Assembly: GCA_037447655.1 (NCBI GenBank)
Contig: JBBHKE010001670.1
Span: 36,972-100,971, forward strand
Origin: Zygnema cylindricum
Lineage: Eukaryota > Streptophyta > Zygnematophyceae > Zygnematales > Zygnemataceae
Reading direction: 5' to 3'
Length of the DNA stretch: 64,000 nt
The notes beneath the pieces are model-generated. The model was not told the origin of the DNA. It saw only the letters and a list, made by a program, of their open reading frames with translations, and made no database searches. The position numbers and the translations under genes are program-made. The stretch's first letter is position 1. Each line of letters opens with the position of its first letter. This document shows, one piece after another, positions 12,239 through 57,394 of this stretch.

Positions 12239-14476
<2,238 letters not shown>

Positions 14477-26620: not shown

Positions 26621-26666
26621 GCCTCTCTATTTTAGTATATTCATATGTTTAGTGTATTTAATAATA

Positions 26667-29566: not shown

Positions 29567-30540
29567 CTCAAGGGTGCCCATTTTTAATGGAGCAGGGTTC
29601 ATTTATTGGGAAACCATGATAAGGGGTGCACTAGTTGAAAAACGACTATGGGGCATTGTGAGTGGTCGTGTGCGTCGGCCATCCGCAAATTTGGGAGTTC
29701 CACCAGGGTTTGGAGGATCTCGGTTCACAGGGGGATCTGCGGGGGCAGAGGTGGAAGAGGATGTTGGAGAGAGCATCGTGTCGGACATAGGGAAGGAGAA
29801 GGGGAAGGAAAAACTTACACCGATGCCTACTGGATCGGTTTTGGCAGCAGGTGTTCAGAAAACCGAGGCTAATGATAGTGAAATCTGGGATTTCAACAAT
29901 ACCGTGGCGACTCATTTTATTCTTGGGCGTCTCACCCAGGTAGTGGCTACACCTCATCTTCATGTGGACAGGGCGGACGAGTTGTGGGAGGCACTTGTCA
30001 ACATTTACAAGAGTGGTACAATTCAGCAGCAGAAGCTAGCAGATCAGAAGGTACAGGCTTATGGGTACAAAAGGGGGAAAAATGTTAGATTTTTGTAATG
30101 ACTTGGCCGGGTTATTTATGGAGTTAGAGAGTGCAGAGAAAAAGGAGACTGAGAAAGAGAAGGTGAATACTTTGTTGATGAAACTCCCAGATGATTATGA
30201 AAACATTGTTAACAGGGTTCAGGACTTGCCAGATCATCGATGGATCTGGAACTCCGTTGTGGGAATGATTTTGGTTCGGGAAAACACAATTGAGATTCGT
30301 AGAGGAGGAAAGAATGTTAAGGCATTGGCTGCTGGAACTAATTGGGGAGACAAGGATTCCAAGAAACCTTATGGAAACTTTGGTGGAGGGGGAAGAGGAA
30401 ATCAATCGGAAGACTCTGGATCGAGGCCTCCGAAGGGGCTTTGTCACTTTTGTAAGAAGGCGAGACATTACATGGCGGAGTGTACTAAATTGTCAGAGTT
30501 GAGATTGAAGGAGGAACAGGTCCGAAAACCAGCCGCAAAG
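29556..30540 (+). pseudogene. Copia C gag
   Basis: Begins MGPPSRVPIFNG at the ATG within the primer-binding site. It has the copia gag landmarks FIYWETM, WDFNNTVATHFILGRLTQ, LPDDYENIVNRVQDL and the zinc knuckle CHFCKKARHYMAEC near 30440-30482, where the usual Gly before His is Arg. A frameshift near 30075-30095 splits the gene just before MLDFCNDLAG. Confidence 0.9.
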
Positions 30541-31947: not shown

Positions 31948-33921
31948 TTGGTAGTTATGGATGAAGGAAAATCCATAGATCCCTTTAAGTATACTAAACA
32001 GGTCAGAATTAGAATTGAATCCGAAAGTGAGTTAGATGCAGATTCTACTAACCGAACTCCGGTTCAGCCTGACCGTGTAGAGGAAGAGAAAAATCTGACC
32101 GAGAGTGACCCGCTTTTGGAGTCACATCTTCCGATTCAAATCGAGGAAGAAAACGATGAAATACGGGAAATGGACGATGAACGACCGGAGAAGGACTCCA
32201 CGGATAGGGGAGAAGGTGAAGTTGTTCGGAGGAACCCGAGATTACCCTCGATTCCCGCGTCAGAATTTGAAGGAGGAAGAAGAAGCAGCAAGAGACTTCA
32301 AGAGAGACAAGTGAACAACAAGGTAACTAAGCTATCACATTTGAGCGAACCCCAGACTTACTCAGAAGCAGTTAATAGTCCGGAAGGTGGTAGATGGGTG
32401 ACAGCTATTAATGATGAGATGGCTTCCATTATGGAAGCAAACACTTGGGAGTTGGTGGATTGTCCTCCGGATAGAAAACCAATAGGGTGCAACTGGGTGT
32501 TTAAGTTGAAGCTCAATCCAGATAACACTATCGAGCGATTAAGTGGAAAAGGGATTCACACAAAAAGAGGGAATCAATTATGAGGAGACTTTTGCTCCAG
32601 TTGTTAGATTTCCCTCCGTCCGGATTCTACTTAGTCTCGCGGCAGCGGAAGACATGGAAGTGCACCAGATGGACATCAAAACCGCTTTCTTACACGGAGA
32701 ATTGGAAGAAGAGATCATCATGCGACAACCGGAAAGATTTGTGGAGAAAGGAGAAGAAAGCAAGGTGTGCAGATTGATAAAGTCCCTTTATGGACTAAAG
32801 AAAGCTCCACGCCAATGGAACAAAAAGTTGGACGAGTTTTTGACAAGTTTGGGATATATCCGAATTAGTTCGGATCATTCCATCTACTTATTTGAGGATG
32901 AGGAAGGTATAATTTTCATTGCCATATATGTTGATGATTTGCTTGTTTTGAGTAAATCAATGGTGAAAATTAATAGATTGAAAAAGGATCTAAAGAGTAG
33001 TTTTGAAATGAAAGATTTGGGGGAGGCAAAGTACATATTGGGAATTCAAATGGAGAGGGATAGAGAAAAGAAGATAATTAGACTAACCCAAAAGGAAGCA
33101 ATTGGGAATATGCTGGAAAAATTTCAAATGGATAAAGCAAATAGTTGTACGACTCCAATGGACTTAAAGAAGGGAAGTGAGGGGAGCTCAGAAGAGGGAA
33201 TCTTGATCTTAGATAATGAGTTAGGACCTGAGGAAAGAAAGTTCATGCAAACTATTCCGTACAGACAGGTTGTCGGTAGTTTGATCTATTTATGAATTGT
33301 ACTCGTCCTGATATAGCAGCAGCTGTGGGAGTATTAAGTAGGAGTTTGAATGATCCTAGGAAGAAAGATTAGGAAGCGGCCAAAAGGGTCATGCGGTATT
33401 TGGTAGGAACAAGAGATTTGTGGTTGCATCTGGGTGGGGATAACACTGACATCACTACTTGGAGTGATGCTTGTTATGGGGATGCTCCGATGAGGAGGTG
33501 TACTTCTGGATATGTGTTGTATGTTGGGAATGGGGCTTGTTGTTGGAGCAGTAAGCAACAAAAGGTGATTGCTCAGTCCACCATGGAGGCTGAGTATATG
33601 GCCTCTTGTTCTACTGTGCAAAAATTAATGTAGGTGAAATCTTTGCTTCAAGAATTGGGATATATGAAGAGCGGAGTGCAAAAAGTATTTTGTGACAATC
33701 AAGCTGCGATTGCAATTGCAGCAAACCCTAAGCATCACTTTAAAGCAAAGCATATGGATATTCGTTTGAGCTTTGTTAGAGAGAAGGTTGAGAATAAAAT
33801 AATTAGTTTGGAATATAGACCGGATGGAGAGATGGTAGCAGATATGATGACTAAACCGGTCCCTTCTCCTAAATTGATATTCTGTAGGGAGAAGTGTGGA
33901 CTGAAGCAAAAGATAGACTAG
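31948..33921 (+). pseudogene. Copia C reverse transcriptase and RNase H
   Basis: Includes the integrase-RT linker, RT start [20 protein letters not shown] (about 32450), palm QMDIKTAFLHGELEE and YVDDLL (about 32928), RNase H WSDACYGD, STMEAEYMA and FCDNQAAI. It ends in a stop just before the polypurine tract. Lesions: a small deletion near 32540 removing the residues that follow ER, a one-base loss near 33292, and TAG for Trp at about 33370 and 33633. Confidence 0.92.
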
Positions 33922-33934
33922 AAAATAAGGGGAG

Positions 33935-34904
33935 TGTTGAAAAGAGAGGTATTTTGTAGTCTTTCTTGTGGACTTACTGCAGCCCTCATACTTGTCGTAG
34001 TCACTGAGGACCTGCATACAGCCATGGCTGCCTGCTGCAGCTAAAGGAGACAGGCAGATCATTCAGGACAGATTTTCTGCAAAATATATACTGCTCCTTG
34101 TGGGACTTGATCCAGTGACCTCTAGATGATCACCGTACGGACCAGCCGTGCGCCTTATCCAGTAAGTCTTGAAGAAATCGATACATACATATGGCGCGAT
34201 ATTTATTTAAAGCTATACCGCGCCGGACATTTCATTTAACTAATTACGGGACGATTTATGCATGGAAACATACCGGTCCGCACGAAATCGGGACCGCACA
34301 AAATATACGGATTAACATTTAATTTCGACGGACGAAATCAAATGTCTAGATCTGTTCGATCTGCTCACAGTGGAGTCGAAATACTGGAATAGCCATTTGG
34401 CAGTTTGCGGACCAGATGTCGGTGGATGACACGTGGCAACATATGGTTGAACAACGAATATCACGAGAGGAACAACTTCGGCTCCGGAACTGACACGCGT
34501 CAGCGAAACGGCCATGCCGTACTATGGTCGTACAAGAAGTACAGCGGTACTTGTACCTTCTTGTACTTTACAGTCTTATGATTGGTCGAAGTACCTTAGT
34601 AGTAGGCTTAGAGAGGTAGCTTAGGACTTAGAATATTTTTGGTTTTCCAGCCTCTCTCCCAGAGTGCACTTGTATTTATGGACCAACTTTGGTCAGCCAT
34701 AACTTAATGCTCACGTGAGCAAATTCAGTGATTCTTTTTGCTGCGGACTCATGGGAGTCCAGGCTACACAAGGGTGTAGTTGGTCAGAGATTTTGCGTCC
34801 CAGGGTGGGACTTATTCATTGTCAAATTCAAAAGTGCATATACTATCCTAGAGGCTTCACATAAGTTGGACATTCTGTGTACCAATGGAGGTCACAGAAT
34901 TACA
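33935..34904 (+). repeat. 3' LTR of copia C
   Basis: Starts TGTTGAAAAGAG directly after AAAATAAGGGGAG. It holds a tRNA-like module on the minus strand at 34096-34171 (CTTACTGGATAAGGCG then GGTCACTGGATCAAGTCC), the clearest tRNA-Arg-like copy in the window. Confidence 0.9.
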
Positions 34905-35431
34905 ATAAACGCCAAAGTGACCATTCCGTGATCGCGGCAGTGAAATATGCCGTCGGATTAAATCCGACATTGAATGTCAGTCGTCGAAGCAAATGTCCCA
35001 ATCATTTGTTTCATGCAAAATGACGTCCGCACCAAAATTTTATCTAGTTCTATGTTCCTTTGTTCACATTTTAGTTAATCGGTTTCAAGACCATGTACAA
35101 GTTTGAATATGTATCAAACCTTATGTATCTTAACGGTTTTGTAGAAAAGACAAGTTAGAGCTAACGGCTACGCCGTACTCTACTGGTCGGAGGTTCGAGT
35201 CTTTCCAAACTCAACCTTTTGTTAAGAGTGACATAAGTCACTTCTTTAGTCATGCCTGTTGAACTAAGGCACCCATGGCTCAACCACCCTCTCTATTCTT
35301 TTGTAACTACAATAAGTATGGTGGCTTGAGAGAGGAGGTGGAGGCAAGCTGTCTACCCTTTTCTTTTTCTTTTTATACTGATATATTTAGACCTAGAAAA
35401 TACTCCATAAAACTAGTAATTTCATCTCGAG
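34905..35431 (-). repeat. Copia LTR remnant J
   Basis: An LTR fragment in minus orientation. It starts with GCCAAAGTGACCATTCCGTG, which also occurs in the LTR of A, contains a B-box-like GGAGGTTCGAGTC on the plus strand (about 35191), and ends with the CTAGAAAATACT signature near 35405. Its beginning is missing where C adjoins. Confidence 0.7.
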
Positions 35432-35777
35432 GCTGAGTATATGGCCTTTTGTTCGGCTGTGAAAGAATTAATGTGGGTGAAATATTTGCTTCAAGAACTT
35501 GGATATATGAAAAATGGAGTGCAAAAGATATTTTGTGATAATCAAGCTGCAATTATAATTGCAGCAAACCCTAAGCATCATTTTAAAGCAAAGCATATGG
35601 ATATTTGTTTGAGCTTTGTTAGAGAGAAGGTTGAGAAAAAAATAATTAGTTTGGAATATAGACCAGATGGAGAAATGGTAGCAAATATGATTACTAAGCC
35701 GGTTCCTTTTCTCAAATTGATATTATGTAGGGAGAAGTGTGGATTGAAGCAAAAGATAGACTGGAAATTAAGAGGAG
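35432..35777 (+). pseudogene. Copia D, RNase H C-terminal fragment
   Basis: Codes EAEYMAFCSAVKELMWV, IFCDNQAAIIIAANPKHHFK, then the copia closing region NMITKPVPFLK with its stop, followed by AAATTAAGAGGAG and the LTR. Everything upstream of the RNase H glutamate is missing. Confidence 0.88.
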
Positions 35778-36757
35778 TGTTTAAAAAGGGTATTTTTTAT
35801 TCTATCTCTTTAGTTTGTCTATGGTCATTCTACTGTTCTCACACTTGTTGTAGTCACTGAGAAATGGCAGGCAGCCGTGGCTGCCTCATGCAGATAAGAA
35901 GACAGGCAAAAGACACAGCCCTGCAAAAGATAGAATGACTGGAACAATATTTTATCCTGTGACCTCCTATATAATTGCCGTACGGAATAGCCGTCCGCTT
36001 TATCCTGTATGTCTTGATGAAACGTTTCGTACATGGGATGTGTTAATTATTTAAAATGTGACGCAAGGACATATTTCATTTAACAGTTTACAGAATAAAA
36101 CAAACATATAACGTGCAGGGCAACACGAAATACTACATCGCACGAAATAAACGAAACGACATTTAATTTCAACGGACGAAATCAAATCGTTGAAATTAAA
36201 TGTCGTTCGCGATCGACAGCTCGGAGAGGAGCCGGAATTTCGTAGTAGACATTTGGTGGTTTGTAAGCCAATGTCGGCAAACGACACTTGGCGAGTTATG
36301 ATTGGACAACGGATATTACAGGGGGAGCAACTACGGCATAGGAACTAACAGTCCTCAGTGGAGCAGCCATGTTGTTCTATGGCCCTACATTAAGTACAGC
36401 GGTACCTCTATCTTCTTTTACCTTACAGTCCTTTGATTGGCTAGGTACACTAGTAGTAGGTTCAGAGAGGGAGCTTAAGACTTAGAAAAATTTAGGTAGC
36501 CGCCTCTCTCCCAAAGTTCATCTGTATTTATCAGCCATCTTTGGCCTGCGATAACTTAATGCTCAGGTGAGCAATTTCACTGATTTTATTAGCTTCGGAC
36601 TTTGGGGAGTCTAGGCTACACAAGGGTGTAGTTGGTCAGAGTTTTTGCGTGCAAAGGTGGCAGTTATTCATTGCTAAAGTCAAAAGTGCAAATATTATCC
36701 TAGAGGTTTCATATAAGTTGGACATTCTGTGGACGAATGGAGGTCACACAATTAACA
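35778..36757 (+). repeat. 3' LTR of copia D
   Basis: Starts TGTTTAAAAAGGG after a polypurine tract and ends ATTAACA. Contains the conserved CTTGTTGTAGTCACTGAG (35843-35860) and a minus-strand tRNA-like module at about 35945-36015. Confidence 0.85.
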
Positions 36758-37833
36758 TCAGGGGGATAGTCCACCAGCTCCCATGTGTTTGCTTGTATAA
36801 TGGAAGTTGTTTCATGATTATTAGTTGTCACCCATCTTCTCCGTTCTGGACTATTAACTTCATCCGAATATGTTTGGGGTTCACTCAAATGTGATGTTAT
36901 CCATCTACTCCGATCCGGACTATTAAGTGCATCCGAATAACTTTGGGGTTCACTCAAATGTGACAGCTTAGTTACCTTGTTATTCACTTGTCTTTCTTGA
37001 AGTCAGTTGCTGCTTCTCCTCCCTTCTTCAAAGTCCGATGCCAAAATGGAGGGTAATCTCGGATTTCTCTGAATGACTTCATCTTCTCCCCTATCCGTCG
37101 AGTTTATTTTCGGCCTTTCCTTCTCCTCTTCCTCGATTTGAACAAAAGATTGTGGCTCCAAAAGAGAGTCATTCTCGGTCAATTTTTCCTTCTCATCTCC
37201 AAAGTCTAGCTGAACTGAAGTTCAATTAAAAGAATCTGAACCTAACTCACTTTCGGATTCACTTCTAATTCAAACCTGTTTAGTATATTTAAAGGGATCT
37301 ACATTTTTCTTCATCCATATCTACCAAGTATTTTACTAGGATGATATTTTCCTTTCCAAGATCATAAACTCTATATCATTTTACATTTTTATCATATCCA
37401 AGTAAGTATCCTGGCTTTTCCCTTGCATCTAACTTCTTATCAGATTTTTTTGCATTTAGACTAAAAACTTGACTTCCGAACACTTTTAAGTGTGAGATAT
37501 CCGATTTTCTCTCAGTACCACTTTCACAAGGTGTTTCACCTTTCACCACCGAGGTTAGGACTCTATTTTTAAGATAATTAACACTGTTCATAGCTTTTGC
37601 CCAGAACCGTTTTCTTATCATCTTATCCAATAGCATACTACGGGCACTATCACTTAATGTCAAATTTAATCTCTCGGCTACACCGTTTTGTTCTAGATTT
37701 TTTGGGACAGTCTTTTGGTGTTGAACCCCTTCCTCTTTTAAAAAATCCTCAAACTGATTAGAGGTATATTCCCCCCCATTATCACTCCTGACTCTCTTTA
37801 TAGGTGTCCCATGGAGCTTCTCACTCCATGCTC
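36758..37833 (-). pseudogene. Copia E fragment (integrase end to RT start)
   Basis: Minus-strand copia coding from ENPEQNGVAERLNL-like sequence near 37690 (degraded) through RKRFWAKAMNSVNYLKNRV and HLKVFGSQVFSL to TWELVDYPPD near 36765. It abuts the LTR of D on the left and the gypsy LTR sequence on the right, both truncating it. A 69-bp in-frame tandem duplication (36832-36900 and 36901-36969) repeats the HLSEPQTYSDEVNSP segment. Confidence 0.88.
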
Positions 37834-37835: not shown

Positions 37836-38298
37836 TATGTTGTTGTGCTGCGATGCTGCGCTAGTTCGTCATCGCAGCTGCGTCGGCATACTAAGTCTAA
37901 AGCTTTAGGGGAGTGTTGTTTTTGGAAAGCTTTCAGTCTCAGCAAATTAGTAGAAGGGTGGAAATATAGATCTATAGGGACACGCGTTGTCCTCTGAAAC
38001 ACAGTGCAGGTTTGTCCAGCGTGCCCGAGAATCCCAAGGTAAGGGCCCACAGCCCGGAGTGGTTGGCCTCGGATTCCTGCAAAGAACCCCCCAAATGCGA
38101 AAGGCTTCCCAGAATAACGATCATGCCTACTGCTGATCCCCCATCCTTCCCATAGATATGCATGCAAAGATAGGAGAGACACCTGAACCGGGAGTAAGGG
38201 TAAGTGCATGGGAAGGCGAAAAGTGCTCCCCTCCCCCTTCCTTTCCCATTTGGCCGAGGAAAGTGATATGGGTTCTTCGTAATCGGGTCGGTGCCCCA
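37836..38298 (-). repeat. Partial extra gypsy LTR next to the 3' LTR
   Basis: Its right 144 bases (38155-38298) nearly copy the U3 start of the main 3' LTR (38641-38788), including the GGTGCCCCA end. The rest, 37836-38154, has no match in the window. Only ATTT separates it from the main LTR. Confidence 0.65.
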
Positions 38299-38302
38299 AT
38301 TT

Positions 38303-38788
38303 TGTACTTATCCACGGGAAGTCTATAGCATTTGTTCCCTCAAAACCCACTGTTTTGATACAAGGAAGTTGCAGTTTTACCCCGGGAAGCTCACGCCAAT
38401 GCAAAAGAAACTACAAGCTAATACACAAATGCACTACCACGTTGACATATAGAAATAAATAGGGATGGCTGTTTCAGATTTAACAATATCATCTTGACCA
38501 GAGAAATCAATTATAAGATGGAAGATATAAAAGATGGCGAAGCAAGCTTAACATACCCCGGCAATTTACGATGACAAAGAGAAAGAGGCGAACTCTCTCC
38601 CCATGGTAGTGTAAATAGGTATGGTGCTCCTTCAACCCCTCATAGATATGCATGCAAAGATAGGAGAGACACCTGAACCGGGAGTAAGAGTAAGTGCATG
38701 GGAAGGCGAAAAGAGCTCTCCTCCCCCTTCCTTTCCCATTTGGCCGGGGAAAGGGATTTGGGTTCTTGGTAATCAAGTCGGTGCCCCA
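38303..38788 (-). repeat. 3' LTR of the gypsy element
   Basis: TGTACTTATCCAC at its left and GGTGCCCCA at its right give TG...CA ends. On the minus strand it begins TGGGGCACC directly after a purine tract. The block 38303-38639 is repeated at 48608-48943. Confidence 0.8.
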
Positions 38789-38801
38789 ATTTCCCCCCGT
38801 C
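38789..38801 (-). other. Polypurine tract of the gypsy element
   Basis: The minus strand reads ACGGGGGGAAAT immediately before the TGGGGCACC LTR start. Confidence 0.75.
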
Positions 38802-38832: not shown

Positions 38833-39003
38833 TTACCCGCCCAATTCACAGTTCCCGCAGAGCCATGGACTAGGGGATGGAGAGCGTTATTCCCACGAGG
38901 AGGGGAGACATGCTGGATGCCAACACTGACTGCACTAATTGCAGACCAAGATGGCGTGCTACGGGGAGGACAGGTTGTATAATGAAGAACAAGAAGGAGG
39001 ATC
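38833..39003 (-). pseudogene. PHD-finger-like C-terminal extension of the gypsy pol
   Basis: Minus-strand translation gives the spacing C-x2-C-x4-H-x2-C (VCN*CSQCWHPACLPSSW, where * is a TAG) followed by PWLCGNC. This matches the second half of a PHD zinc finger with its W-x-C-x2-C ending. The first cysteine pair is not clear and three stops interrupt it. PHD fingers read histone H3 tails, so a role in choosing integration sites is plausible but inferred. It lies between integrase and the polypurine tract. Confidence 0.5.
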
Positions 39004-39151
39004 GGCAAAGTAAGTCAAGTGGAAAGTGGGTTCGTCTTCCAATCCTCAGAAATTGCAAGGGGTCACATTGATCTGATTCTCTTTAATTCTTCGACCATCT
39101 TTCCCCTTTAAAGTCAGAACTCCCTGTTTGAGACTTTCACCACTTTCAAAA

Positions 39152-40181
39152 TCACCCGCTCGGCAGAAATGTCAAGCGTGTCCTTTTTCTATTGCATTTG
39201 ATATACAAAGTCTCCCGGCATAAATCGTCGCTGTCTGGGCACATAATCCCCGTTTCGGCGCTTGGAATACCACAATTGATCCCAGTGTTGTGCCGCTTGT
39301 AAATTCCCCATGGCGAGAGGCATTTCTCGGTGGAAGATTTTGGCATGATCGGCGATCAGTTTTTCGACAGTCCCCTTATTATCTATTTCAGGGAGGACCA
39401 CCGCTTGGGCCTAGGCAGCCTCGGGCAGAATGGGATGTCGTCCGAATAAAATGAAGTAAGGGCTCTAGGAGTGGATGGAAACCTGTCTGCTGAATCTGTA
39501 TCCCATGACAATCCAAGGCACCCTTTTGTCCCATTCTCCTAAGTCCTCTTCCACGGCATATTTTCGTAGTGACCGCTTCATTGTCTATACGCACCTTTCG
39601 GCCAAATCGTCGGCTTGAGGGTGGTCGCGACTGGTAAATTGATGGTCGATGAGGCATTTCTCCAAAAGATTTGTAAATTCTCCGACGAATTCCGATCCCT
39701 GATCTGTCAAAACCTGTGCTGGCGCTCCAAATTGTGACAGGACCCTCTGCAAGATAGCGTCGACGACAAACTTGGACTCCTTTCGGGGCAGAACCACAAG
39801 CTCTATCCATTTTGAGAAATGTTCAATCATGACCAGGACAAAACGATTCCCACGTCTGCTGGTCGGAAGAGGTCCCAAAAGATCCAAAGACCACCGATAA
39901 AACATCCTAGGGATAGGAAGAAAATGCAGCTCAGTCTCGCCCTTTTTGTCAAAGGAGGCCTTAACTTGATCGCAGGAAGAGCAAGTCTCTACAATTCGGT
40001 TGACTTGGGCTCGCAACCTGTGCCACCAATAAGAGCCTGTAACTAGGGAAGTGGTCCACTTCTGCCCGAAGTGTCCACATTGCTTGTGGAGATTAGTAAT
40101 CAGAGTTTCTCGATCTGATGGATGAGGAACCCTTTTCCTCATACGGTTTGACCATTTCCGGGGAGAACACCTCGGTCCCAT
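39152..40181 (-). pseudogene. Gypsy integrase
   Basis: Minus strand: zinc-binding region (LHKQCGHFGQKW ... VETCSSCDQVK), then the catalytic core with SLDLLGPLPTSRRGNRFV, LTDQGSEFVGEF and the DLAERCV segment that supplies the glutamate. The C-terminal part (HREMPLAMGNLQAAQHWDQL, RRFMPGDFVY) is typical of gypsy integrase. Frames change near 39585 and 39400, so it is broken. Confidence 0.9.
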
Positions 40182-40297: not shown

Positions 40298-40885
40298 TCA
40301 GGCTCCTATGGGTGCATGCCCCTCAACATTTGCTGCAAAAGTGGACAATGCCCCCCCAGATGGAGGAAGCCAAATTAAGGCGGAGGATGCTCGAATGAGT
40401 CCCAAACTGATTTCCGGGTTTTCGTCATGCCGAGCCCCGGTGGAATCTAGTGTGGAAGGATCAAGGTTTCGGCTAAGTCCGTCGGCATTCCCATGGATTT
40501 CCCCTGCCCGGTGAACAATGCTGAAATCATATTCCTCCAGGATAAGCACCCATCTGGCGAGTTTGCCGGTCAACTTACTATTCTCCATGATCCATTTCAA
40601 GGGTTGGTGGTCAGTGATCAGTGTGAAATGGACCCCGTACAAATAAGGCTTGAAATGCTGGATAGCCCACACAGCTGCCAAAAGCTCCCCATGGTAACTG
40701 CTATAATTCCCCTCAGCTCGGTTTTTGCTCCGGCTGGCGTAAGCCACCACATACTCGGCTCCGGCGTCGTCAACTTGAGCCAAAACCGCTCCTAATCCAA
40801 ACCCACTCCAATCAGTGTAAAGAAGGAAAGGTCTTTGGTGATCAGGCATCCATAGCACTCGGTGCTGCTTCAGTGCATCTTTCAA
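40298..40885 (-). pseudogene. Gypsy RNase H
   Basis: Open for 195 residues on the minus strand. The catalytic positions are in LLYTDWSGFGLGAVL, YHGELLAAVWAIQHF and LITDHQPLKW, and the segment ends HGNADGLSRN. This is the usual gypsy RNase H placed directly after RT. The tail (ALIWLPPSGGALSTF) links to integrase. Confidence 0.92.
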
Positions 40886-41936
40886 AAACAGGAAAGCGAT
40901 TTGCTATTCCTCGGCCCACACCCATTCTTGATCTTTCCGCAATAGCTTATTTAGGGGCTGGGCATGACTACTGAACTCAGGAATAAACATGCGATGGTAG
41001 TTGGCCAGGCCGGAAAGGTGCGCAAGGCGGAAATGTCCTGCGGGGGAGGAAGAGCGTCAAGGGCTGCAACCTTAACCATATGGGGACCCACTGTCCCGGG
41101 AGTCACCTCATGTCCGAGGTAAACAATTTTCTGCACCCCAAAAATACCCTTACCCGGATGACATTTCTAAACCGCTGCTTAAAGGGTCGGAGAACGATCT
41201 GGATATGCTCCAGGTGTTCTTCAAAGGTCTTGGAGAATATTATGACATCGTCGATGTAGCACCGGGTACAATCGATTCCTCGGAGCGCTTTGTCCTTGGC
41301 CCGTTGGAACTTGGCTGGTGCATTCTTGATTCCGAAGGGCATATAAATCCACTCATAAAGTCTGGATCCGGCCCAGAATGTCATTCTCTACGGTGTTTTC
41401 GTTCCATGGCAATCTGGTGGAATCCATTCTTCATATCCAGTGTGGAGAAGATGGTGGCTCCCGCAAGAGAGTCGAAAATCTCTTCCGGGGTTGGCATTGG
41501 ATTACGGTCAGAAATGGTGGTCGTGTTTAGCATGCGGTAATCCCCACACATTCAAAAATCTACAATTTTCCTAGATGAATCCTTCTTAGGAGGGAGACTT
41601 GTGAGGGAAGCAAACCCATGGAGTCATGTGCTTTCTTGAACCAACCCAGCGTCTACCAAAGTTTGGACCTTTGCGGTGATAAACTCCTTCTCCTTAAAGT
41701 TGAGAGATACTGTTTCTGCCAAACAGTTGCGGTTTCGTCGATCAAGTCAATACGAAAGGGGGTTCCTTTGTATATTCCGACATCTGTTTCTGACCAGGAG
41801 AAAACCTGATTGTTGTTGGCCAAGAGTTCCGTTAGCTGTTCTTTCTGCTGAGGGTCCAGCTGCTCCCTTAGAGTCCAGTCAATCTTTCCCGGCTCAACTG
41901 CGGCCCAGGCTTCCGGTGGTCTCCCCCAGAGATTGA
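40886..41936 (-). pseudogene. Gypsy reverse transcriptase
   Basis: Starts on the minus strand with ELLANNNQVFSWSETDVG and GTPFRIDLIDETA. After a frameshift near 41700 it continues with the palm (SLAGATIFSTLDMKNGFHQI), the conserved YMPFGIKNAPAKFQ, the active site YIDDVIIFSK (about 41245) and the connection segment KIVYLGHEVTPG. Frameshifts occur near 41390 and 41110. Confidence 0.9.
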
Positions 41937-42167
41937 TGTCGAATTCTAGCCCAATCTGTGGATCCGCCTCTACTCCTCCGGATAATACTTTACTGCTGAG
42001 AACTTTCGCTAAGCTGTCCCTTTCTGAACTACCGTTCCCCCCCCACTGAAGGAACTTCTAGGTGTAGAATTTTTTTCTTCTGTCTCCCCCCCTCAAGCTG
42101 CAAAGTGGCTCGCATGGATAACAATTTTGGAGCTTAAAGGTAACTTCTGCGGGAATCTAGAGAATGG

Positions 42168-43123
42168 AGACTGGAATACGCAAGAGCGTGTTTTGTAACC
42201 CATGCAATGGCATTCTAATCCATGTTTTGCCCGATTAAACTGCACCTTTGCAGGTCTGAAATACGTGGTGAGGCCGTGGTTCCCGGATGGAATCCCATGG
42301 CTTGTTCTCAATTCGAAATTGTTGGTGTCGTCCAAATTCCTGCCTCGATGTCAAAAATCATCCCAACTTCTCCTTTTCTGTAGGCGTGACTATGAGGAAA
42401 AGAGACCAACGTGGGGAGGGTTTGGCGAGGAGATCCGGGTGTTTTGTATTGGAAGAAAGGAGAACGATCCGGTTTGGTTACAGGTGTGGCTATTCTCCCT
42501 TCCCCGAGTATTTGTTGTACTGATGTCTGAGGTTCGGGGGTCTGTTTCTCCAACAGTTGCCGGAGGACTGGAAGCGGGATCATATTGGTCCAATATGCCC
42601 GGAGTCTGTGTTCTCGAGATCCCATTTGAACAGCGTCAAAAACCAAAGGAGCTCCCAAAGTCCGGGTTACTTGTTTCCAACTGTCTGCAACCTGTTTTCG
42701 TTTATTATCCCCCGGGTGGACGTTCTCCAGGATGTACCCCACAGGTGTGTCTTGGAGCAACGGAATCCACGATATTAATTTAATCATTTGGTAAAAGGTT
42801 CCACTCCTGCGGTCTTGATGCCCTTTTCCTCGTCCTGCGAGGGAGTATCCTTGACAAGGCCATCCTGCCACAACCAGATCTATTCTGCCCAGACTTGCTA
42901 AATGGGGTGCCATAATGTTATCCACGTTCTGGGGAAGACTCCGGTGAGCTTTGGAAATGGAAGACACTAGAAGCTGCTGAGGATATAGGCGGTGCAGCAG
43001 ATAAAGGCGATGTTCGCTGACAGCTCGTGCTTCCGGTGAAATCTCCACTGGTGTATATGACTCCACCCGATATCATGCTTTCAAAACTGCTTCCAGATCG
43101 GAACTTATTCCTGAAAATAAAGA
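42168..43123 (-). pseudogene. C5-cytosine DNA methyltransferase domain inside the gypsy element
   Basis: On the minus strand the cytosine-5 methyltransferase motifs appear in order. Motif I is LFSGISSDLEAVLKA (43120-43076). Motif IV is VVAGWPCQGYS with the catalytic Cys (about 42895), motif VI YILENVHPGD (about 42730) and motif VIII SREHRLRAYWTNM (about 42600). The C-terminal IX/X-like region is EQAMGFHPGTT and CSLIGQNMD (about 42300-42215). The PCQ and ENV residues are intact, but three in-frame nonsense codons occur (about 43074, 42309 and 42217). Motif VIII recalls DNMT3/DRM enzymes, but subfamily needs a tree. It lies between protease and RT. Such enzymes transfer a methyl group from S-adenosylmethionine to cytosine C5; here the target might be host or element DNA. 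Confidence 0.88.
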
Positions 43124-43261
43124 TTAAATCCGAAGTCCGGTGTCGGGGACTATCAATGACACCACTTGTCGATTGAAGTCCTCGTTACCAGTCTTGGTTG
43201 GGAAAACATCTGACCGGGTTGTAGAATATGTTTTCGATAATAATAACAAGGTCGAGAATGC

Positions 43262-44872
43262 CTAATCTACTCTCCTCCGGTGTTTTTTTACCTGCAATAA
43301 TCTGTTTGTGTATTCCCCTTCCCACCACTTGGAAATCAGGAATTGCTTGATGTCCTCTGCTATATCCGTAGAACTATCAAACAGTTCCGCCGGAGAGGAT
43401 GTAGAATACATTGGGTAACAGCCAAAAATAGGAACATTTGTTTTTCCCCGGTTCCATAAATCCAAAGAAACCACCACTTTGGTTTCTTCGGGATTTCCAG
43501 GGTCCCGAACGGTGCATTGTTCCTTCCAAACACTTAAACTCATATTCATCCGGGTCCATGTAGCCATCCCCAACAAGATTTCAAACTGATTCCCTTCCAC
43601 CACTAAGAAAGGAAGTGCAATTTTCACCTTCTGCCCAGCATCATCGGAGAATTCAATGTCCATAGCTTTGATGATTCCATGGACTGGCTGGCTGCCGCTG
43701 CTTACCGTGCTTAAGCAGATATTACTCGGGCAGATTTGAGGTCTGAGTTCCTCCGGCATTTTCTGCAATGCTGAAGTGGTGATAAGGTTTGGAAGTGCTC
43801 CGGTGTCGACCACAGCGTCTTGGTACCCGCCGTACCCATTAAGTTTGAAGTTGCCCGTCCGGTTCAGAATGAGCGCTACGGACAAGGTTTTGTAGTCCCT
43901 ATCCACCATAGGGGTTTTAGGCTCTGCAGACAAATATACCGCCGTGGGTGGTGTCGCTCGGTCGACTTTGTCCTTTCCAGAATGTATTTCTTCTCCCAAG
44001 GCCTGAATGAGGATATCTTCGGGCAGATTATGGGAGGAAGCGAGGGTTTTGACATGAGTCAAGGCATATGGCATAAGGTGCCTGACTAGCATGACAGCAG
44101 GCTTTGAGGAAGGGAGTAGGGCTCTCGGGGATGAAGCCGGCGAATCTGGTTCCCGATCCTGTTCGTTCCCCTTCTTGTCATCACTTTCAGAGCCGGAATC
44201 GGGCATTGGTGGAGTTTTGGGTGCCTCCTCGTCCGGACGTTCGGCCATGAACCGCTCAAACCAATCCTGGGTACTCTGTTTGTCCTCTTCTAGTGATTTC
44301 TTCTCCTGCGGTAGTTTCTCGCTCTTGTAATTTTTGAAACCGGGAGGCAATTTAGGCTTAGAAGGAAGAGGAGGAGGTTGAGTGGGCTTGATCCCAAGAA
44401 CTTTGTCACTGTTCAGCACTACTGCCCGGGGCGTGAAAGATAAAGGCCCGGTGGCATTCCGGTTGTGGTCTTTCTTGCTCATTTTCTGCCTGTCTCTCCT
44501 CTGATCAGAGGTTGAGGAGCGGAGTTGTCTACGACCATCTCCCACCCCCACATTCCACGCTCCGTGAAGAAAACTGCTTGCATGGTGGGCATTTGGGGGT
44601 TCCAAATCCCAACCTATCAAATCATCTTCGTTAGCACCCGCTGTGCTTTGAAACTCAAGCTCCTCTACTTTTTGTAGTAACTCTTGCTTCTGTCTTTGGA
44701 GTCGTTGCGCTGCTGTAAGAGGAGCAGGCCGTGAAATCGATCCCAAACAAAGTGCAGCCAATTCTGCAGCCATGGCAGCCATTTGCTGACTCTGCTGTTG
44801 GATTATTATATCCGGTGTGAGTCTTGCTGGAGCAGCCGTTGTTTGTTTTGGAGTCTCTGGTGTAGGCAGCAC
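43262..44872 (-). CDS. Gypsy gag C-terminal region and aspartic protease
   Basis: A 536-residue open stretch on the minus strand. It begins with a Gln/Ala/Leu-rich predicted coiled coil (QQQSQQMAAMAAELAAL ... RQKQELLQKVEELEFQS) and continues through a Pro/Ser/Asp-rich linker. The retropepsin domain contains VVDTGALPNLITTSAL (about residues 350-365) and the matching FEILLGMATW flap-to-end region. DTG is the retropepsin active site. It ends in a TAG at 43262, about 140 bases before methyltransferase motif I. The first residues overlap, in another frame, the end of the upstream gag fragment. Confidence 0.88.
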   Translation of the reverse strand: MLPTPETPKQTTAAPARLTPDIIIQQQSQQMAAMAAELAALCLGSISRPAPLTAAQRLQRQKQELLQKVEELEFQSTAGANEDDLIGWDLEPPNAHHASSFLHGAWNVGVGDGRRQLRSSTSDQRRDRQKMSKKDHNRNATGPLSFTPRAVVLNSDKVLGIKPTQPPPLPSKPKLPPGFKNYKSEKLPQEKKSLEEDKQSTQDWFERFMAERPDEEAPKTPPMPDSGSESDDKKGNEQDREPDSPASSPRALLPSSKPAVMLVRHLMPYALTHVKTLASSHNLPEDILIQALGEEIHSGKDKVDRATPPTAVYLSAEPKTPMVDRDYKTLSVALILNRTGNFKLNGYGGYQDAVVDTGALPNLITTSALQKMPEELRPQICPSNICLSTVSSGSQPVHGIIKAMDIEFSDDAGQKVKIALPFLVVEGNQFEILLGMATWTRMNMSLSVWKEQCTVRDPGNPEETKVVVSLDLWNRGKTNVPIFGCYPMYSTSSPAELFDSSTDIAEDIKQFLISKWWEGEYTNRLLQVKKHRRRVD

Positions 44873-46070
44873 TGGGCGCCCCCAAGGATAAAGGAGTTGT
44901 AGGGGAAGAGGGTTAACGGTAGTCTCTCCTCCTTCGTGAACAGAGCGAATTGCATCATTTCCTTTGCGATCCCGTTATTCCGAAAACATTGCCCCTCCTT
45001 GTGCCCCATAAAACCACAGGCCTCGCACTTGTGACCCTCGGTGGTATACTTGCTCCGAATCTTGTTGGAGATCTGAGCATCGTCAAACTTTGGCAGTTTG
45101 ATCGGCCGTAGTTGAGACTGGGACATTTTCAAAGTTTCGCTCCTGGGAGTGGGGCGGTAATTGTCCTTTGTGACCGGTGTTCTTTCCCCCCCCCCAGCTC
45201 CTTTGAGCCTTTCTTGCTGCTGCTTGTGGCTCCCTTTCAGAACGCTCTACTTCCCATTCTTTCAGCCGGAGGGCTAACTCCGGTTTGAGTTTCCTGCTGC
45301 AGCGTTTCCATCCATGTCCCGGTTGTTGGCAATTTAGGCAAATGTACAATATTACCCGTTCGTCTGCCCCCATTGCGGGTTCGGGTCCGCTGTCCGCAAC
45401 TTGCTTCCCTTTAAGCTTCCGCAAAGCTTGAAGTTCCGCTTGTTCTTCCCCACTTAAGGAAGTTTCCCCGGCGAATCCTGCTAAATTCGCTCTTGCCTTG
45501 CCGGTCACGGCCTTTTCCCTCGCCTCACTGTGAACGAAGTGGTCATATAACTTCATGGCCACCACTGAGATGTCCTTTGCAGAGGGATTTATGTCCTGGA
45601 TTGCTTATCCTGCAATCCAGTTATCCAACCCAGTCTGCCTTGTTGGTCTGAAGGAATTACGGACAGCAATGAAATACTTTGTGGCCATTGCAGGAAGATC
45701 AATGGTCGACAGCTTAGTTTTCTGGCACAGACTCGATAGACAATTGAAGAGAGTGTGAGAGTCTCCTTCTTCAATCATCGGAATTCCGTGAATTCCTTGA
45801 TGGCCGATTCGTTCCTCTCGGTGTAGAGGAGTCCCCAGATATATTCAGAAGGGTGGTGCAAGAGGTGGGATTGGCCACCATGCGTGTTGTTGCCCGAGCT
45901 GCCTGAATAGCTTGCAGCTGGTAAACATAGGCCATTCCTTGGGCCTGCAGCTTCATATCATCACTCAATGTGGCTGTCACAGGTGTTGCTGCCGCTGCAG
46001 CCAAGTCAGCCTCCGCTTGTAAAACGGCCGCATCAAGAGTTGGATCAGATATCTTGATGCTAGGAGCCAT
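44806..46070 (-). pseudogene. Gypsy gag with two CCHC zinc knuckles
   Basis: Starts MAPSIKISDPTLDAAVLQAE at 46070. An Ala/Gln-rich helical region and a capsid-like middle (MVAMKLYDHF) lead to two zinc knuckles about 300 bases apart: CLNCQQPGHGWKRC (about 45340-45299) and CEACGFMGHKEGQC (about 45030-44988). Both keep C-x2-C-x4-H-x4-C. Frameshifts near 45770, 45570 and 45100 break the gene. Confidence 0.85.
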
Positions 46071-46301
46071 TAAAAGAAGTTAACGCTCCTTATAGTCTGC
46101 CAACGCCCCTCCAAAGAGGTAGTTGACCATCATGGGAAAGAGGGTCGTCTCGAAGTCATCCGGCATCGCTCCTCCCCTGTACTTATTGATTTTTTTATTG
46201 GGTGAACGATTTCCACAACAACTCAAAATCTGAGAAAGCGATCCCCGAGCTGTCCTCGTAAATATTCGAATGTCCCCCATTTCTTTCTCTTCTTCCGCTG
46301 A

Positions 46302-48482
46302 TTAGGTGAACTGAGAAAAGGAAAGGCCGGTGGGACTGACAAACTGTGTCGGCGAAGTGACTCCTTTGTCCTCTTCCTCGGGACCGGAACCGCCTTCTCC
46401 TCCGGTAGGAGGTGGTGCTTTGCGAGGTGTGGATACTCCTCCCGCAGAGGAAGTACCAGCGCCTGAAAGGATGGTTAGAGGAAGGGTATTCCTCAAAGGG
46501 AGAACTCCTGGACCCTTGGGTGCAGAGGGTATCTGCTTTTGAAGACCTGTCTGGCCTGGTGTAGAAGAAGGAAGGGCCCACTCCCCTTCGTCCACTCCTT
46601 AATATCCACGAGAATACCTTTTGTCCTTAAGAACTGTCTCCTCTGAAGGGATGTGGATCCGAGGTCTGTTCAAAGGTGGATCTCTAGGAAGGGATGGAGA
46701 AGAAGACGACGAAAGCCATTTCTGAGGAGAAGGAGTTCGTCTCTGGAAAGGTGTCTGTTTCCGGGGCCATCTTCGGGAGGTTTCAGGAGGAGTTCCAAAA
46801 CTGGAGGATGGGGAACGTCCGTGAGGAGGAGAGTAGACGTCGGACTTAGAGGGTAAACTTAGCGAACCTGGTGACCCATGGTCTGCTCCAGTAAGGGAAA
46901 CAGAAGGTGAGGGAGAGGAGATGGGAACGTCTCGAGGCTCTGCTGCAGGATCTTGGGAGTGAGAGGTAGGAGGATGAGGAGAAGGAGGAGGATCAGGGGA
47001 CAGTCTGGGTGGAGGCGAAGGAGGTGTGGACGGTCTCAAGGGGATATGAATTCTTTCGTCCGGTCGTAACTCCACTAAGGCCTCAACAGCTGCAAAAACT
47101 TCCACCAAAACAAAAGTAGGCTCTTCCCGAGGAGCCGCTGCGAGTTCAGACGGTGAATCTGCACCCAAACCCCCAATATTAGGTCTTGTGTCTGCCCCCT
47201 CTTCCCGCTGAAGAGGAGGTTCCTGACCAGTCTCCGAGGAAGGAGCCTGGGGTTGAGCTCCTTACGGAGGTTCCGTTACTGGTGTTGGAGGGATCCGCCC
47301 ACTGAGGATCCCACTTGACCTCCGCCGAGCTTCCCGGATGAGGTTCAATTCCTGCTCCCACAACTTTCTCCTTTCTTCCTCCAAAGCCTCCTAATCTACC
47401 GTGACGGGTCCAGCCCCCGCAGTATCATGACCCTGAGATTTCAAAATTTCCACTAGTTCCTTAGCCCTTTCCACTACTCCGGTCAGATCAGCTATCCCTG
47501 CTCCTAGAATTTTTGGATCTGTTGGCCTGGCTCTCCACAATCCTTCGGACAACTCTTCTGGTCCTGTTTCCGGAACCTGGGTCGCCAGAACCCTCCGGCT
47601 GGGCGAACATGGGGTGCCCTAGGAGAGGTTCTCTCAGGGGAGACTGACGCCAGGGTTGCGGAAGTTTCTTCCTTTGGGAGAGGTGCAAATCTACCCTTAC
47701 TATCCCTATGATCAAACTTCTTCCCCATCACTAGCTCTCGAGCCCCCCTTTCGCGGTCACCTGCTCCCTTACGAGCCCTCGGAGCAGGGCGCACCCGTGA
47801 TTGTCGGCTTGCTACAGTGTCTTGGGAAGAAGATGGAGGAGGGCGAGAAGGAGGAGCCCTTCTGGGCCTTTCCTGCATAGACTCTGAGGAACCACTCTCT
47901 GAAGAGCTGCTTAGAATCTCCACCACCCCTCCCACTGGTTTAACCACCCAGGGCCGATCCGACCGAGCCACTCTCTACACCAACTTCGCTTCACCTTCAG
48001 TTCATGAAGGTCATGAAGAGCCAGGAGTTCCTTTCGACCAGGGCAGCTGGGATCCGCCAAAACCGCAGGGTCAATCTGAATCTCTGCCCTGAGAATCTTT
48101 GATCTGGTGTGAAGCCCGACCTCGGGAAGAGGACCCAAAGGGGGCTCCCGCTAGGCTTGTCTCTTTGGTCGAGCTCGGGGCGACACTATGTTTCTTTCTT
48201 GAGCCTGTGCCCTTGACTCTCTTCTTTCCTCGGCAAAGGCCCTGGCGGCCTCCGCCAAAGAAAGGAAATGTTCTGGAGTAAGGCTAGGAGGAGAGGGAGG
48301 CGAAAGGACGGGCTAGGAGGAGAAGGAGGCGAAAAGACCGCAGCTGGTTCCTTGGCTGGAGAGTCAAAAACGGTCTCCATGGGAACAAATTCCCCGGGCA
48401 TTTGAGAATCTTCCTCCTGTGCGGGCTTCTCCGGCCTACCCTGTTCTCCTAATCCATTATCTGGAGTTTCTCCTCCCCCCAT
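46302..48482 (-). pseudogene. Proline/serine-rich leader coding region of the gypsy element
   Basis: Between the 5' LTR and gag the minus strand keeps long open stretches (48482-48186, 47971-47504, 47168-46599, 46595-46302), rich in Pro, Ser, Arg and acidic residues. A 31-bp unit is duplicated near 48282-48340. The composition suggests a disordered protein, possibly an extra ORF upstream of gag that has since been shifted out of frame. I recognise no domain and cannot exclude low-complexity noncoding DNA. Confidence 0.45.
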
Positions 48483-48607
48483 GATGACAAAGGGGACTAG
48501 CGGAGAAGTAATAAAGGTAACTAAAGCTCACTCCCACAAAGAGAACTTCTAAGTCAAAGCTCCTATCCCCTCTAATCCGAGAAGGCAGGTTGGTGGCTTT
48601 TCAGTAT

Positions 48608-48943: not shown

Positions 48944-49559
48944 TTGGTGTCCGCAGCTCGGAACCGACCAGACTCTTCTCAGTTTCAAGCAGCGAAAAAT
49001 CCAAAAATCACCCAAAGGGACGATAGTGCCAACTACCAGCCCGAACTGTGATTCCCACAATGGACAGATTCAAAACGAAGATGGCAATAGAGTCAAACAA
49101 AACAAAGATTCTTTCAAAAAAAAGTTTGTTGGATTTTCTGAGGGTTTTTACAGGAGACAGTACTGTGAAGCAACCTGTCTCCTTCGGCCCCAAGTGCCTT
49201 ATACAGCAAAAGCTTGTCCATTCAGGTCAAAAAGTCAAACAACCGCTATTAGCCAATGAGCGGCAAGCAACAGCAACCGAACTGACATAAGACAAAATAA
49301 GGTGTACTACACTTAGGGCAAAAAGTTAGACCTCTAACTACGGCTTGATCCGCTGCCGGAGGTTATTATTTGTTCCACAGTTCTAAGACAAAGTACGAAA
49401 AGGACACGGAAGTGCCAAACTTTGTAATAAATGGACCACTGGTCAGCTGAACCTGAACTGAATTGCTACAGAAAGCTACAAACATAATCGAGATTACAAT
49501 CTCAAAGTCTACGTGGCAATCCACAATGTACCCCCCACTAGGGCTGGTGGATGCTAGTG
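48944..49559 (-). other. Sequence right of the gypsy LTR block, possible alternative U3
   Basis: It has no counterpart in the 3' LTR at the left end. On the minus strand GCTGTATAAGGC (49197-49208) is TATA-like and lies upstream of the shared LTR block, as a U3 promoter would. It could instead belong to copia I or to another lost element. Confidence 0.4.
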
Positions 49560-50702
49560 CTATGTAACGGAACTGCGATCTTTCAGACGGTAGAACTTTG
49601 TCGTCCGGCCTCCGTTAGGCGCGAAATAAAGTGCGTCTGGTTCCGTAGAGGAAATGTTATAATCCTTCCGGCTGATTGTGCTCACTTCTCTGTAATCTGA
49701 GAACAGTACGGGTCGGAAGGGTACGGAAGTCCTCGGTAATATAAAAGGGGGCCTGAAAGCACTCGAGCTTGACAAACCCGGCTTTCGTCCCATCCAGAGC
49801 AAAAATTTTCCTGTGGCTTTCACTCTCTTGTATGCATTACACATTCTGAACACATGCCCTTTTTCATCACAATAATTGCGTGTCAAAGGTGACCTTCTAG
49901 GACCACTACCTCAGCCACAACCATTGCTAATCTTAGAATCTGAAAACTGGTTAGAAAATTGGTTAGCTAACGCCTAAATAGACTTACTACTACCTCTTTG
50001 TGACATTTGGTTAGCTTCTTCACTCAAAATCAGTTGAATTGCTAATGCTATGTTCCATTGACGCTGTGGTATAGCCCTTAGCCTATCCATGGCTCCCTTA
50101 TATTCATCGGGCAAAGTTCTTAACAACAACATAGCTTGTTTAGGTGGTGAAAAGTCCCCACCTACACTAGTACACTGAAGGAACAACCTTTTCATAGCAT
50201 GGCAATGATGTGACATACTACCTCCAGATTACTTAAACTCAAAAATCTGAGTGGCTATGTTAGTCTGGACTGTAACATCTAGCTGAACATACATAGCACG
50301 TACACTAAACCAAACTTCAGAAGCTTTCTTCATCTCAAGATACGACATTACCAAGTCTTTTATCATTGACTGCTTCAAGACGTTGAGGCAGTGGAGATTC
50401 TTCTTTCTCCAATCCGGCGCGGTCACATCCACTGTTCCTTCCACAATGGGTGACAAGTCCCTCTTCTCGAAATATGAGCTCAACATATCTTCCCAGTATA
50501 AGTAGTCAGTTCCGTCAAAAATATGCAATTTGGGCGGTGGGCCCATAACCTGTTGAAGGTCATGGGCATTTAGACTTGGCTGTGATCCACTCCCACTAGG
50601 AGTCACTCTTGCACCAGTTGGGATATTCGTCCCTGGAGGAGCAGGTGGAGCACTAGAGCTAATAGGAGCACTTGCAGCAGGAGCTGAGCCATTAGTAGAC
50701 AT
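49560..50702 (-). pseudogene. Copia I gag (different lineage)
   Basis: The minus strand starts MSTNGSAPAASAPISSSAPP, then DLQQVMGPPPKLHIFDGTDY, an UBN2-like body (VMSYLEMKKASEVWFSVRA, LLLRTLPDEYKGAMDRLRAI) and a degraded knuckle (YCDEKGHVFRMC). It is clearly different from the A-G family in sequence but keeps the QVMGPP segment. The complement of the tRNA-iMet anticodon arm occurs at 50536-50550, and TGTTGAAGG follows at 50551. It is truncated before the protease, and frame breaks lie near 50225 and 49970. Confidence 0.8.
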
Positions 50703-51392
50703 GATAGCAGAAGCAAACCCAAAGAGAAATGCCTAGTAGACTAGATCTATAGTGTAGGATATGTAACTCCAAATGAAAGAGGTCTTTCAACCATACAAAC
50801 ATGAACTACAAGCAAATCAAAGACAATAGAGCCTTAAACACCTTAAACTGCACGCAGTGCTCTCATTTCCTTAACTCTTGTGTAGAATGTACATTCTGTA
50901 TCAAACTGATCATTCCTAATTGAATTAAATACTCTAACGATCTTCGAAATATCTAAAACGTATGTACGTTTGTACAAGGACAGTCTACTGACAAAAATCT
51001 AAGTGTTTGGACCAGAATTGTCCACTAACAATATCTATACCCTAAAAATCCGGGTGATTCTTATCACGTCTACAAGCACAACTAAATTCCTAATTAGAAT
51101 ATAAATTCGATTAAAGTTGCCTCCTTTAACACCGCCCCTATTTGGTAGAAGAGCACAAGTTGCGGCTCTCTTATATCGAGGCATGGTTGTTGATGATAGG
51201 GGAGGCCTCTCAAATCTTCAACTAAGAGATTCAATCCACATTCAAGATTTTAACGGTTTTAGGCCTTGGTTTATTATGGTTGTGGGTATTCATCTGCTGT
51301 AGATTTATTCTATTTAACGTTGTCGTCTTTGGTAGTTTAAGCTTTTCTTTTTTGTTTGTTCTCTATGCCTTTGCGTATTTTTTTATTATTCT
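50703..51392. other. Possible LTR of copia I, otherwise unassigned
   Basis: If 50551 is the LTR start, this stretch would be its body. No partner LTR is in the window to confirm it, and no gene was seen. Confidence 0.35.
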
Positions 51393-51973
51393 ACAACGCG
51401 AATCGCTATCAGCGTATAGAAACAATAAGTGTAAAAACATAATTTGTGTTATTAGCTCTAATTTAGATTTTTTGCGTTTCGAAAACAAACATTTTACTCT
51501 AATTTATTCATAACTCTAAGTTAGCTACAGTTCGCTTATAATGAATCTGCAATCAAGATCTTTACATTATAATGGGTACGGGTACAAAATGTGACAAAGT
51601 GTAAACCATCGCGTCCTTTTACTCTAATTGAGTTCTATCTCTAATTTGGGTCTTGTCACGTATAACTAATACGCGATCAACATCTTTACACTAAAATAGG
51701 CACGGCCTCAATTTTCCTTTTATTTTGATCGGAGTATTAAGCGCGTTCCCGATTATTTTAGTCCATATTCCGTACTTTATTACTTAACAAAGTACCATTT
51801 TTTACGGACTGTCACGTTCCACACACCACTCTATTCAAGAAGACCATAAATTAGAGTTATTAACGCTAATTAAATAATACTTTAATTAACGTAAAAAATA
51901 ATAAGTGTTACTAATTATGTTTAAGGTTTTAGAGTCAAATTTGGGGGCGACGAATTAGCCTTAATAACGCTAC
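51393..51973. mobile_element. Degraded mariner-like TIR element
   Basis: The left end ACAACGCGAATCGCTATCAGCG and the right-hand phrase GGGGGCGACGAATTAGCC with AATAACGCTA match the subfamily at 19836 and 62454. The right terminus is lost. Its interior is A/T-rich and noncoding. Confidence 0.55.
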
Positions 51974-52083
51974 CCTGATGGTTTTTCCGTCGCAAGTTTT
52001 GCAATAAAGATTATTTATTTCAAAATGTCACGTTTGGCATCTCCGTTTTCACTAGGATCGGAGTAATTTATAAGTAACACTTA

Positions 52084-53630: not shown

Positions 53631-53633
53631 TTA

Positions 53634-55373: not shown

Positions 55374-55578
55374 TGTAGAAATTAAAGGTTATTTTAGTAT
55401 TTTCTAGGTTTTGTAAAATGCAGAAAAGAAGCAGAGGCAGTCTCCCTCTATCTCCTCTCTCCAGCTCCCACACTTGTCGCAGTCACTGAAAGTTGGAGAG
55501 GGAGATAGAGCCATGGCCGCCTATGCTATCCCGGCGGGGACAGATATTAGGTTAGTAGATATTACCAAAATAAACTTG

Positions 55579-57390: not shown

Positions 57391-57394
57391 AATC

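Follow-up and report, generated by a model that had tools for sequence, protein, structure and literature searches.

Why would a retrotransposon encode a cytosine DNA methyltransferase (DNMT), and how might the dose of such an enzyme be set? Host cytosine methylation is a main silencer of transposons, and an element with its own selected de novo DNMT inverts the usual arms race. The question is raised by a stretch of 64,000 nucleotides of the Zygnema cylindricum genome (hereafter, the window), in which a preliminary description, made from the letters alone, had placed C5-methyltransferase motifs, in order and on the minus strand, between the protease (PR) and the reverse transcriptase (RT) of a Ty3/gypsy element. 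A Pfam profile (PF00145), tblastn and translation agree on this placement. The window copy is a decayed member of a large, old Ty3/gypsy family, and it is virtually certain that the DNMT is encoded by the gypsy element.

Comparisons among copies rest on 61 aligned sequences: the window copy, 20 copies at up to 10 kb that were chosen for open frames, and 40 at 1.7 kb, half of them of top rank and half of lower identity; this sample leans to well-kept copies. The parts of the window copy are given below, with L numbers denoting other copies.

48944..49775, minus strand: X, segment at the outer end of the 5' terminal unit; starts TTGTCAAGCTCGAG, with the same start in L010, L020 and L028, and beside Y in L013
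48607..48943, minus strand: A1, 5' copy of repeat A; 92.6% identity to 38302-38638 over 337 nt
45083..48490, minus strand: gag region with broken frames and a CCHC-like knuckle near its end (ORFs; zf-CCHC_2 E 0.023, below cut-off)
43358..43927, minus strand: aspartic protease (DTG) (tblastn with the PR of L011; Asp_protease_2 E 0.0091, below cut-off)
43346..43348, minus strand: codon between PR and DNMT; AAG in the window copy, UAG in 54 of 61 copies
42161..43174, minus strand: predicted DNMT3-type C5-cytosine methyltransferase with in-frame stops (PF00145, tblastn, translation, PDB search)
41053..41769, minus strand: reverse transcriptase (YIDD) (RVT_1 E 1.2e-11 on 41103-41387; tblastn)
40514..40918, minus strand: RNase H (RT_RNaseH E 3e-36; tblastn)
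39195..40154, minus strand: integrase with H2C2 zinc binding and rve core (Integrase_H2C2 7e-13, rve 6e-14; tblastn)
38836..39075, minus strand: PHD-like finger downstream of the integrase (tblastn; PF00628 E 0.0044, below cut-off, in L023)
38641..38792, minus strand: B1, the first of the two B repeats, with a G-rich purine tract before it; 94.1% identity to 38151-38302
38302..38638, minus strand: A2, 3' copy of repeat A; 92.6% identity to A1
38151..38302, minus strand: B2, second copy of repeat B; 94.1% identity to B1
38013..38150, minus strand: Y, segment at the outer end of the 3' terminal unit; ends GCTGGACA in the window and GCTCGACA in L013, L017 and L020

The domains follow the Ty3/gypsy order of PR, RT, RNase H and integrase (Pfam on pieces of the window and on L023; tblastn), and unbroken stretches of gag are present in other copies of the family. 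A PHD-type finger after the integrase is also found at the C-terminus of many RT-integrase relatives; in other plant gypsies, a chromodomain occupies that place.

The minus-strand frame 42308-43072 matches PF00145 with E 2.4e-10 and 40.8 bits, against a Pfam cut-off of 22. A tblastn search with the domain of another copy as the query gave an extent of 42161-43174 on the minus strand, so that the location proposed in the preliminary description stood, whereas the length did not, the domain being longer. A single frame of the window translation contains, in order, a motif I-like segment, IV (PCQ), VI (ENV), VIII, IX and an X-like end, under the customary numbering of the C5-methyltransferase motifs. 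The unrearranged order from I to X, which the DNMT3 family demands, is seen in the translations of the window and of the family copies. With a family copy as the query, the best PDB match in a sequence search was DNMT3A; the profile E-value was 1.3e-17 for DNMT3A/B, the nearest solved relatives, versus 8e-4 for the tRNA enzyme DNMT2, and DNMT3A and DNMT3B were the top matches of the predicted fold as well, at about 20% identity in the fold alignment. As judged from its sequence, then, the enzyme of the element is a DNMT3-type C5-cytosine methyltransferase; unlike mammalian DNMT3A and DNMT3B, it comes without a PWWP or ADD part and is joined to Pol domains instead. Five in-frame stops downstream of PR (43262-43264, 43124-43126, 43073-43075, 42308-42310 and 42215-42217) make the window copy a dead pseudogene. 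We also considered identity with the plant DRM enzymes, in which motifs VI-X precede I-V, and rejected it because the order here is not rearranged.

These observations can be assembled into a mechanism. Gag-PR would be produced by normal translation. At the tobamovirus-like sequence UAG CAA UUC, a minority of ribosomes would continue into DNMT-RT-RNaseH-integrase-PHD, and the DNMT, at the head of a Pol of low abundance, would match RT and integrase in its small yield and be packaged alongside them. Once in the particle, it may methylate the new double-stranded cDNA or the insertion site, in the CG context if it behaves like DNMT3, such that the new copy would arrive already marked, while the PHD-like finger might read chromatin at the target. 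If true, this would be a self-marking retrotransposon in which the dose of DNMT is metered by translation. The whole account, combining an old gypsy family, a UAG-metered DNMT-Pol and self-marking by methylation, appears to us evenly balanced between right and wrong. It draws direct support from the family itself, the domain order, the conserved UAG with its context, purifying selection and the relatives with the same fusion.

The step that concerns marking of the cDNA or insertion site is proposed by analogy, and we hold it tentatively, at slightly below an even chance. The DNMT of a related type of element, SymbioDIRS-Dnmt3, brings about de novo CG methylation in yeast, and the KnitGypsy-Dnmt3 enzyme yielded no methylation in yeast, a result that its authors called inconclusive (PMC5890265). 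The latter result is compatible with a different reading, which we consider doubtful but of real weight, namely, that readthrough operates as proposed and the DNMT is kept for copy-number control that would spare the host, for methylating RNA or tRNA, for binding nucleic acids or for defending the host cell against DNA viruses. RNA methylation and a benefit to the host are both raised in PMC5890265, and defence against viruses is raised in PMC6338049. These other functions are at odds with the proximity of DNMT3A/B and the remoteness of DNMT2 in the profile comparison, and with the retention of the catalytic Cys (56 of 61 copies) and of ENV (58 of 61).

The CpG content bears on the same issue. 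The observed-to-expected CpG ratio averages 0.67 in 18 copies of the element; a pair of copia stretches have values of 0.51 and 0.58, compared to 1.16 at 15400-29000 and 1.22 at 50500-56000, window stretches without a recognised transposable element. This contrast fits a genome that methylates its transposons and would point to CG methylation directed at transposable elements. It reveals no extra mark on the DNMT-gypsy family, and the ratio of the element, not being below those of the copia elements, counts against the self-marking account. With at least about 149 genomic places, saturated synonymous divergence between subfamilies, several algal relatives, two positions of the DNMT and a stop codon, the benefit of the enzyme to the element becomes testable.

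Where did the enzyme come from? The preliminary description was right in recalling DNMT-encoding retrotransposons as a precedent (de Mendoza et al. 2018, PMC5890265), and a DNMT3 within a gypsy element is a published kind, represented by KnitGypsy-Dnmt3 of Klebsormidium nitens (PMC5890265). In that element as in the present one, the gypsy Pol contains a DNMT3-type domain with its motifs unrearranged, copies are many (about 149 places here) and selection is purifying, a likeness that is drawn from the published description rather than from sequence comparison. They differ in that a UAG parts PR from DNMT-Pol here, whereas readthrough goes unmentioned in the main text of PMC5890265. The SymbioDIRS-Dnmt3 of Symbiodinium likewise has a DNMT3-type domain within a retrotransposon Pol but belongs to the DIRS elements with a tyrosine recombinase, unlike the RT, RNase H and DDE-type gypsy integrase found here (PMC5890265). 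One sentence in PMC6338049 mentions green-algal gypsy or DIRS elements with a methylase, and the same paper describes transposons encoding DNA methylases as absent from land plants such as tracheophytes.

Database searches suggest that the DNMT-gypsy family is much wider than one green alga. Thirty proteins match the DNMT profile, 28 of them at E <1e-30 and several fused to RT, and 14 IMG/VR loci gave partial matches at 28-61% identity. The RT-integrase search returned 2161 proteins at E up to 1e-20; among the 120 of these listed, the DNMT was recognised by HMM in 62, before RT in 18 and between RNase H and integrase in 44, some of the HMM matches being short (notably, P0144 and P0070). The other 58 matches listed, which include 8 pseudoscorpion proteins, are without a DNMT; because the part before RT exceeds 450 residues in only three of them (P0099, P0109 and P0133), this absence is mostly uninformative. 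The closest relative among the matches listed is P0031 (73%, source jgi), with the order DNMT-RT-INT-PHD. Named carriers of the DNMT before RT are Closterium (P0073, P0090) and P0145, the label of which, Tetstr1, presumably stands for Tetraselmis; the Closterium proteins combine a related RT-integrase with the same DNMT in the position seen in the window, although in P0090 PR runs into the DNMT without a stop, unlike in the window family. Pols assigned to Haematococcus or Pleodorina (P0070, P0071, P0079, P0105) and, weakly, to Pseudoscourfieldia carry the same DNMT, but between RNase H and integrase.

In an IQ-TREE analysis of 63 DNMT domains, which left out 20 of the 41 after-RNase-H rows, P0030 and algal host DNMT3s and in which the bootstrap had not settled, a branch with support 99/98 set the DNMTs of the elements apart from P0029 and human DNMT3A, and those of the after-RNase-H type formed one clade (100/100) that included two fragments of unspecified position. 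Fourteen DNMT fragments from the P0001-P0017 range clustered in this tree, and the DNMT of P0005 fell in the same wide group as that of the window. Given that the tree held no algal host DNMT3, a single capture is not proved. In FastTree, a very long branch led to the divergent bacterial P0030, which was placed closer than human DNMT3A to the DNMTs of the elements. The RT-integrase tree recovered an after-RNase-H clade of which 44 of 45 tips are of that type (support 0.877), and a second such tree recovered it with SH-aLRT 100 and one tip without a DNMT; the before-RT type was scattered, the deepest branch included. In the second of these trees, the after-RNase-H clade has DNMT-less sisters, P0099, P0102 and P0133, so that loss and regain or transfer between elements are possible, as is one relocation.

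A bolder history, with a probability that falls a little short of even, is an ancient DNMT-gypsy clade spanning chlorophyte and streptophyte algae, in which a single capture before RT was later moved, or passed between elements, to a place between RNase H and integrase, many of the Pols would combine a methylation writer with a PHD reader, and in the present family self-marking would be metered by a UAG. The FastTree placement of P0030 and the sentence in PMC6338049 were weighed in holding it at that level. The alternative, in which several green-algal gypsy lineages captured a DNMT separately, twice to judge by position, is unlikely, if not strongly so. It gains from the two positions of the DNMT, from DNMT-less P0099 and P0133 as sisters of the after-RNase-H clade, from the K. 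nitens protein P0109, which is without a DNMT, and from the lack of algal host DNMT3s in the DNMT tree, and it loses from the separation of the element DNMTs from DNMT3A and P0029 and from the single DNMT clade, with its two fragments of unspecified position, of the after-RNase-H type. P0109 (KFL_001690230, 2087 aa) and the DNMT-bearing P0005 share 75.8% identity over 99 aa of RT. No report of the two-position history among green-algal gypsies was found in the titles and opening lines of abstracts of the open-access literature.

How might the element limit the amount of its DNMT? PR and DNMT share one reading frame across a codon that is TAG in 54 of the 61 copies, TAA in one, TAT in two (one of these in the poorly aligned L018) and AAG in two, one being the window copy; L019 and L051 have other sequence at this place. 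In 52 of the 54 TAG copies, CAATTC follows directly. The TAG codon shows 89% identity across the alignment (median per codon, 59%), with 35 of 420 codons conserved as well or better, and wobble identity in the ten codons after the stop is 0.86 versus 0.63-0.74 elsewhere. Programmed readthrough of the UAG between PR and DNMT-Pol is the best interpretation of this layout and, on sequence grounds, a probable one. The context contains the UAG and CAR YY of type I readthrough, with C rather than A as the sixth base in all 54 UAG copies. As in tobamoviruses, for which the plant-virus consensus is UAG CAR YYA, an in-frame UAG followed by CAA UU precedes a rare product, the sixth base being the difference (PMC3542737, PMC5009743). 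In MLV gag-pol, the UAG is accompanied by a pseudoknot, whereas a search for a downstream pseudoknot 3' of the UAG of the element established none. Two hairpins drawn by hand after the stop have 95.7% of cells paired, but both partners vary in only one pair, in 14 of 54 sequences. An unbiased consensus fold of the region 3' of the stop is weak and differs from these hairpins. In contrast to the tobamovirus and MLV cases, the first domain past the stop here is a methyltransferase.

A quite improbable alternative holds that the UAG is a true terminator and that Pol is made by reinitiation or from another mRNA, or else that the UAG arose through C-to-T decay of CAG in methylated copies. Methylated cytosines tend to turn into T, and the six nucleotides after the UAG match CARYYA imperfectly, both of which speak for this explanation; yet TAG ranks among the better-kept codons even across copies with saturated synonymous sites, and CAG occupies the position in none of the 61 copies. 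In 12 database relatives, a stretch judged by eye, from its motifs, to be PR-like runs into the DNMT with no stop, so that the UAG looks special to the family of the window and readthrough would not be general in the group. The stop is perhaps shared by P0031 and P0003, the readings of which begin 25-30 residues before the DNMT. Readthrough of UAG in a DNMT-bearing element was not reported in the titles and abstract openings of the open-access literature that we searched.

The capture proposed in the preliminary description is not confined to the window. A six-frame search of the 353 Mb assembly (2689 contigs) with the 254 residues of the window as the query detected the DNMT, at 60-100% identity, in at least about 149 places (150 matches, two of which are adjoining pieces on one contig; such repeat counts are lower bounds), which excludes chance as the source of the match. 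Moreover, the order PR-DNMT-RT, which the preliminary description proposed to seek elsewhere in the genome, is kept on one strand in 18 of the 20 copies analysed over lengths of up to 10 kb (tblastn). These numbers, along with environmental proteins in which the DNMT is fused to RT, refute the insertion of a host DNMT gene into a single gypsy copy, the probability of which is negligible. Among the long copies, about 4.4 kb separate PR from the downstream DNMT in L014, L018 runs up to a contig edge, L019 is a DNMT fragment, and in L023 and L024 one frame (1520 and 1525 residues, respectively) spans DNMT-RT-RNaseH-INT-PHD.

The DNMT is under purifying selection. Between subfamilies, its dN/dS (Nei-Gojobori) is 0.070-0.078, and 0.087-0.120 over a longer stretch and with other groupings; corresponding values are 0.045-0.081 for PR, 0.026-0.051 for RT, 0.038-0.059 for the integrase and 0.121-0.169 for the PHD-like finger, all of these ratios being rough, with synonymous sites saturated in many comparisons and pairs dropped (17/42, 5/18 and 20/21 usable pairs for the DNMT). 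Within subfamilies, the DNMT ratios of 0.24 and 0.26 are as expected because dead copies are included. No stop interrupts 375 codons in 18 of the 61 copies. As a separate matter, L019 (oriented 5264-6406) retains 381 aa of intact DNMT frame, with 82% identity to the L020 counterpart, and is without PR, RT, integrase and ends; the possibility that it is a domesticated stand-alone DNMT was rejected in favour of a truncated element fragment, and its unbroken frame is probably due to chance.

Elsewhere in the window, copia elements occupy both strands at about 1-7400, 29500-37830 and 56500-60400, with some inverted pairs 74-84% alike, and a GA-type simple repeat borders a run of N at about 13040-13900. 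Neither Rfam (gathering threshold) nor ARAGORN gave a match over the 64,000 nt, and no recognisable host gene was seen among the ORFs, judged by eye, of the parts free of transposable elements.

The preliminary description was correct in placing all parts on the same strand, but the LTR-like ends that it mentions are not a plain pair. We dropped the plain pair in view of the repeats, which read A-internal-B-A-B, and of the junctions in L013, L020 and L028. The whole order, X-A1-internal-B1-A2-B2-Y, is known from the window copy alone, where the A copies differ by 7.4% and the B copies by 5.9%, implying that this is not a fresh insertion. The parts seen in L013 and L028, internal-B-Y with X directly next, fit that order, and nested in L020 is an X-A-B-Y unit, about 1.46 kb long, that is bounded by TGTC...GACA and may have a 4-base duplication (TTCC). 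The repeats of KnitGypsy-Dnmt3 have the same structure as those of a DIRS retrotransposon, according to the legend of Fig. 4c (PMC5890265), and the order in the window copy would correspond to it. Where Y meets X, the sequence forms an imperfect palindrome (GCACGCTCGACAGCTGTCAAGCTCGAGTGC in L013), and split direct repeats of a DIRS-like kind occur in an element with a DDE-type gypsy integrase.
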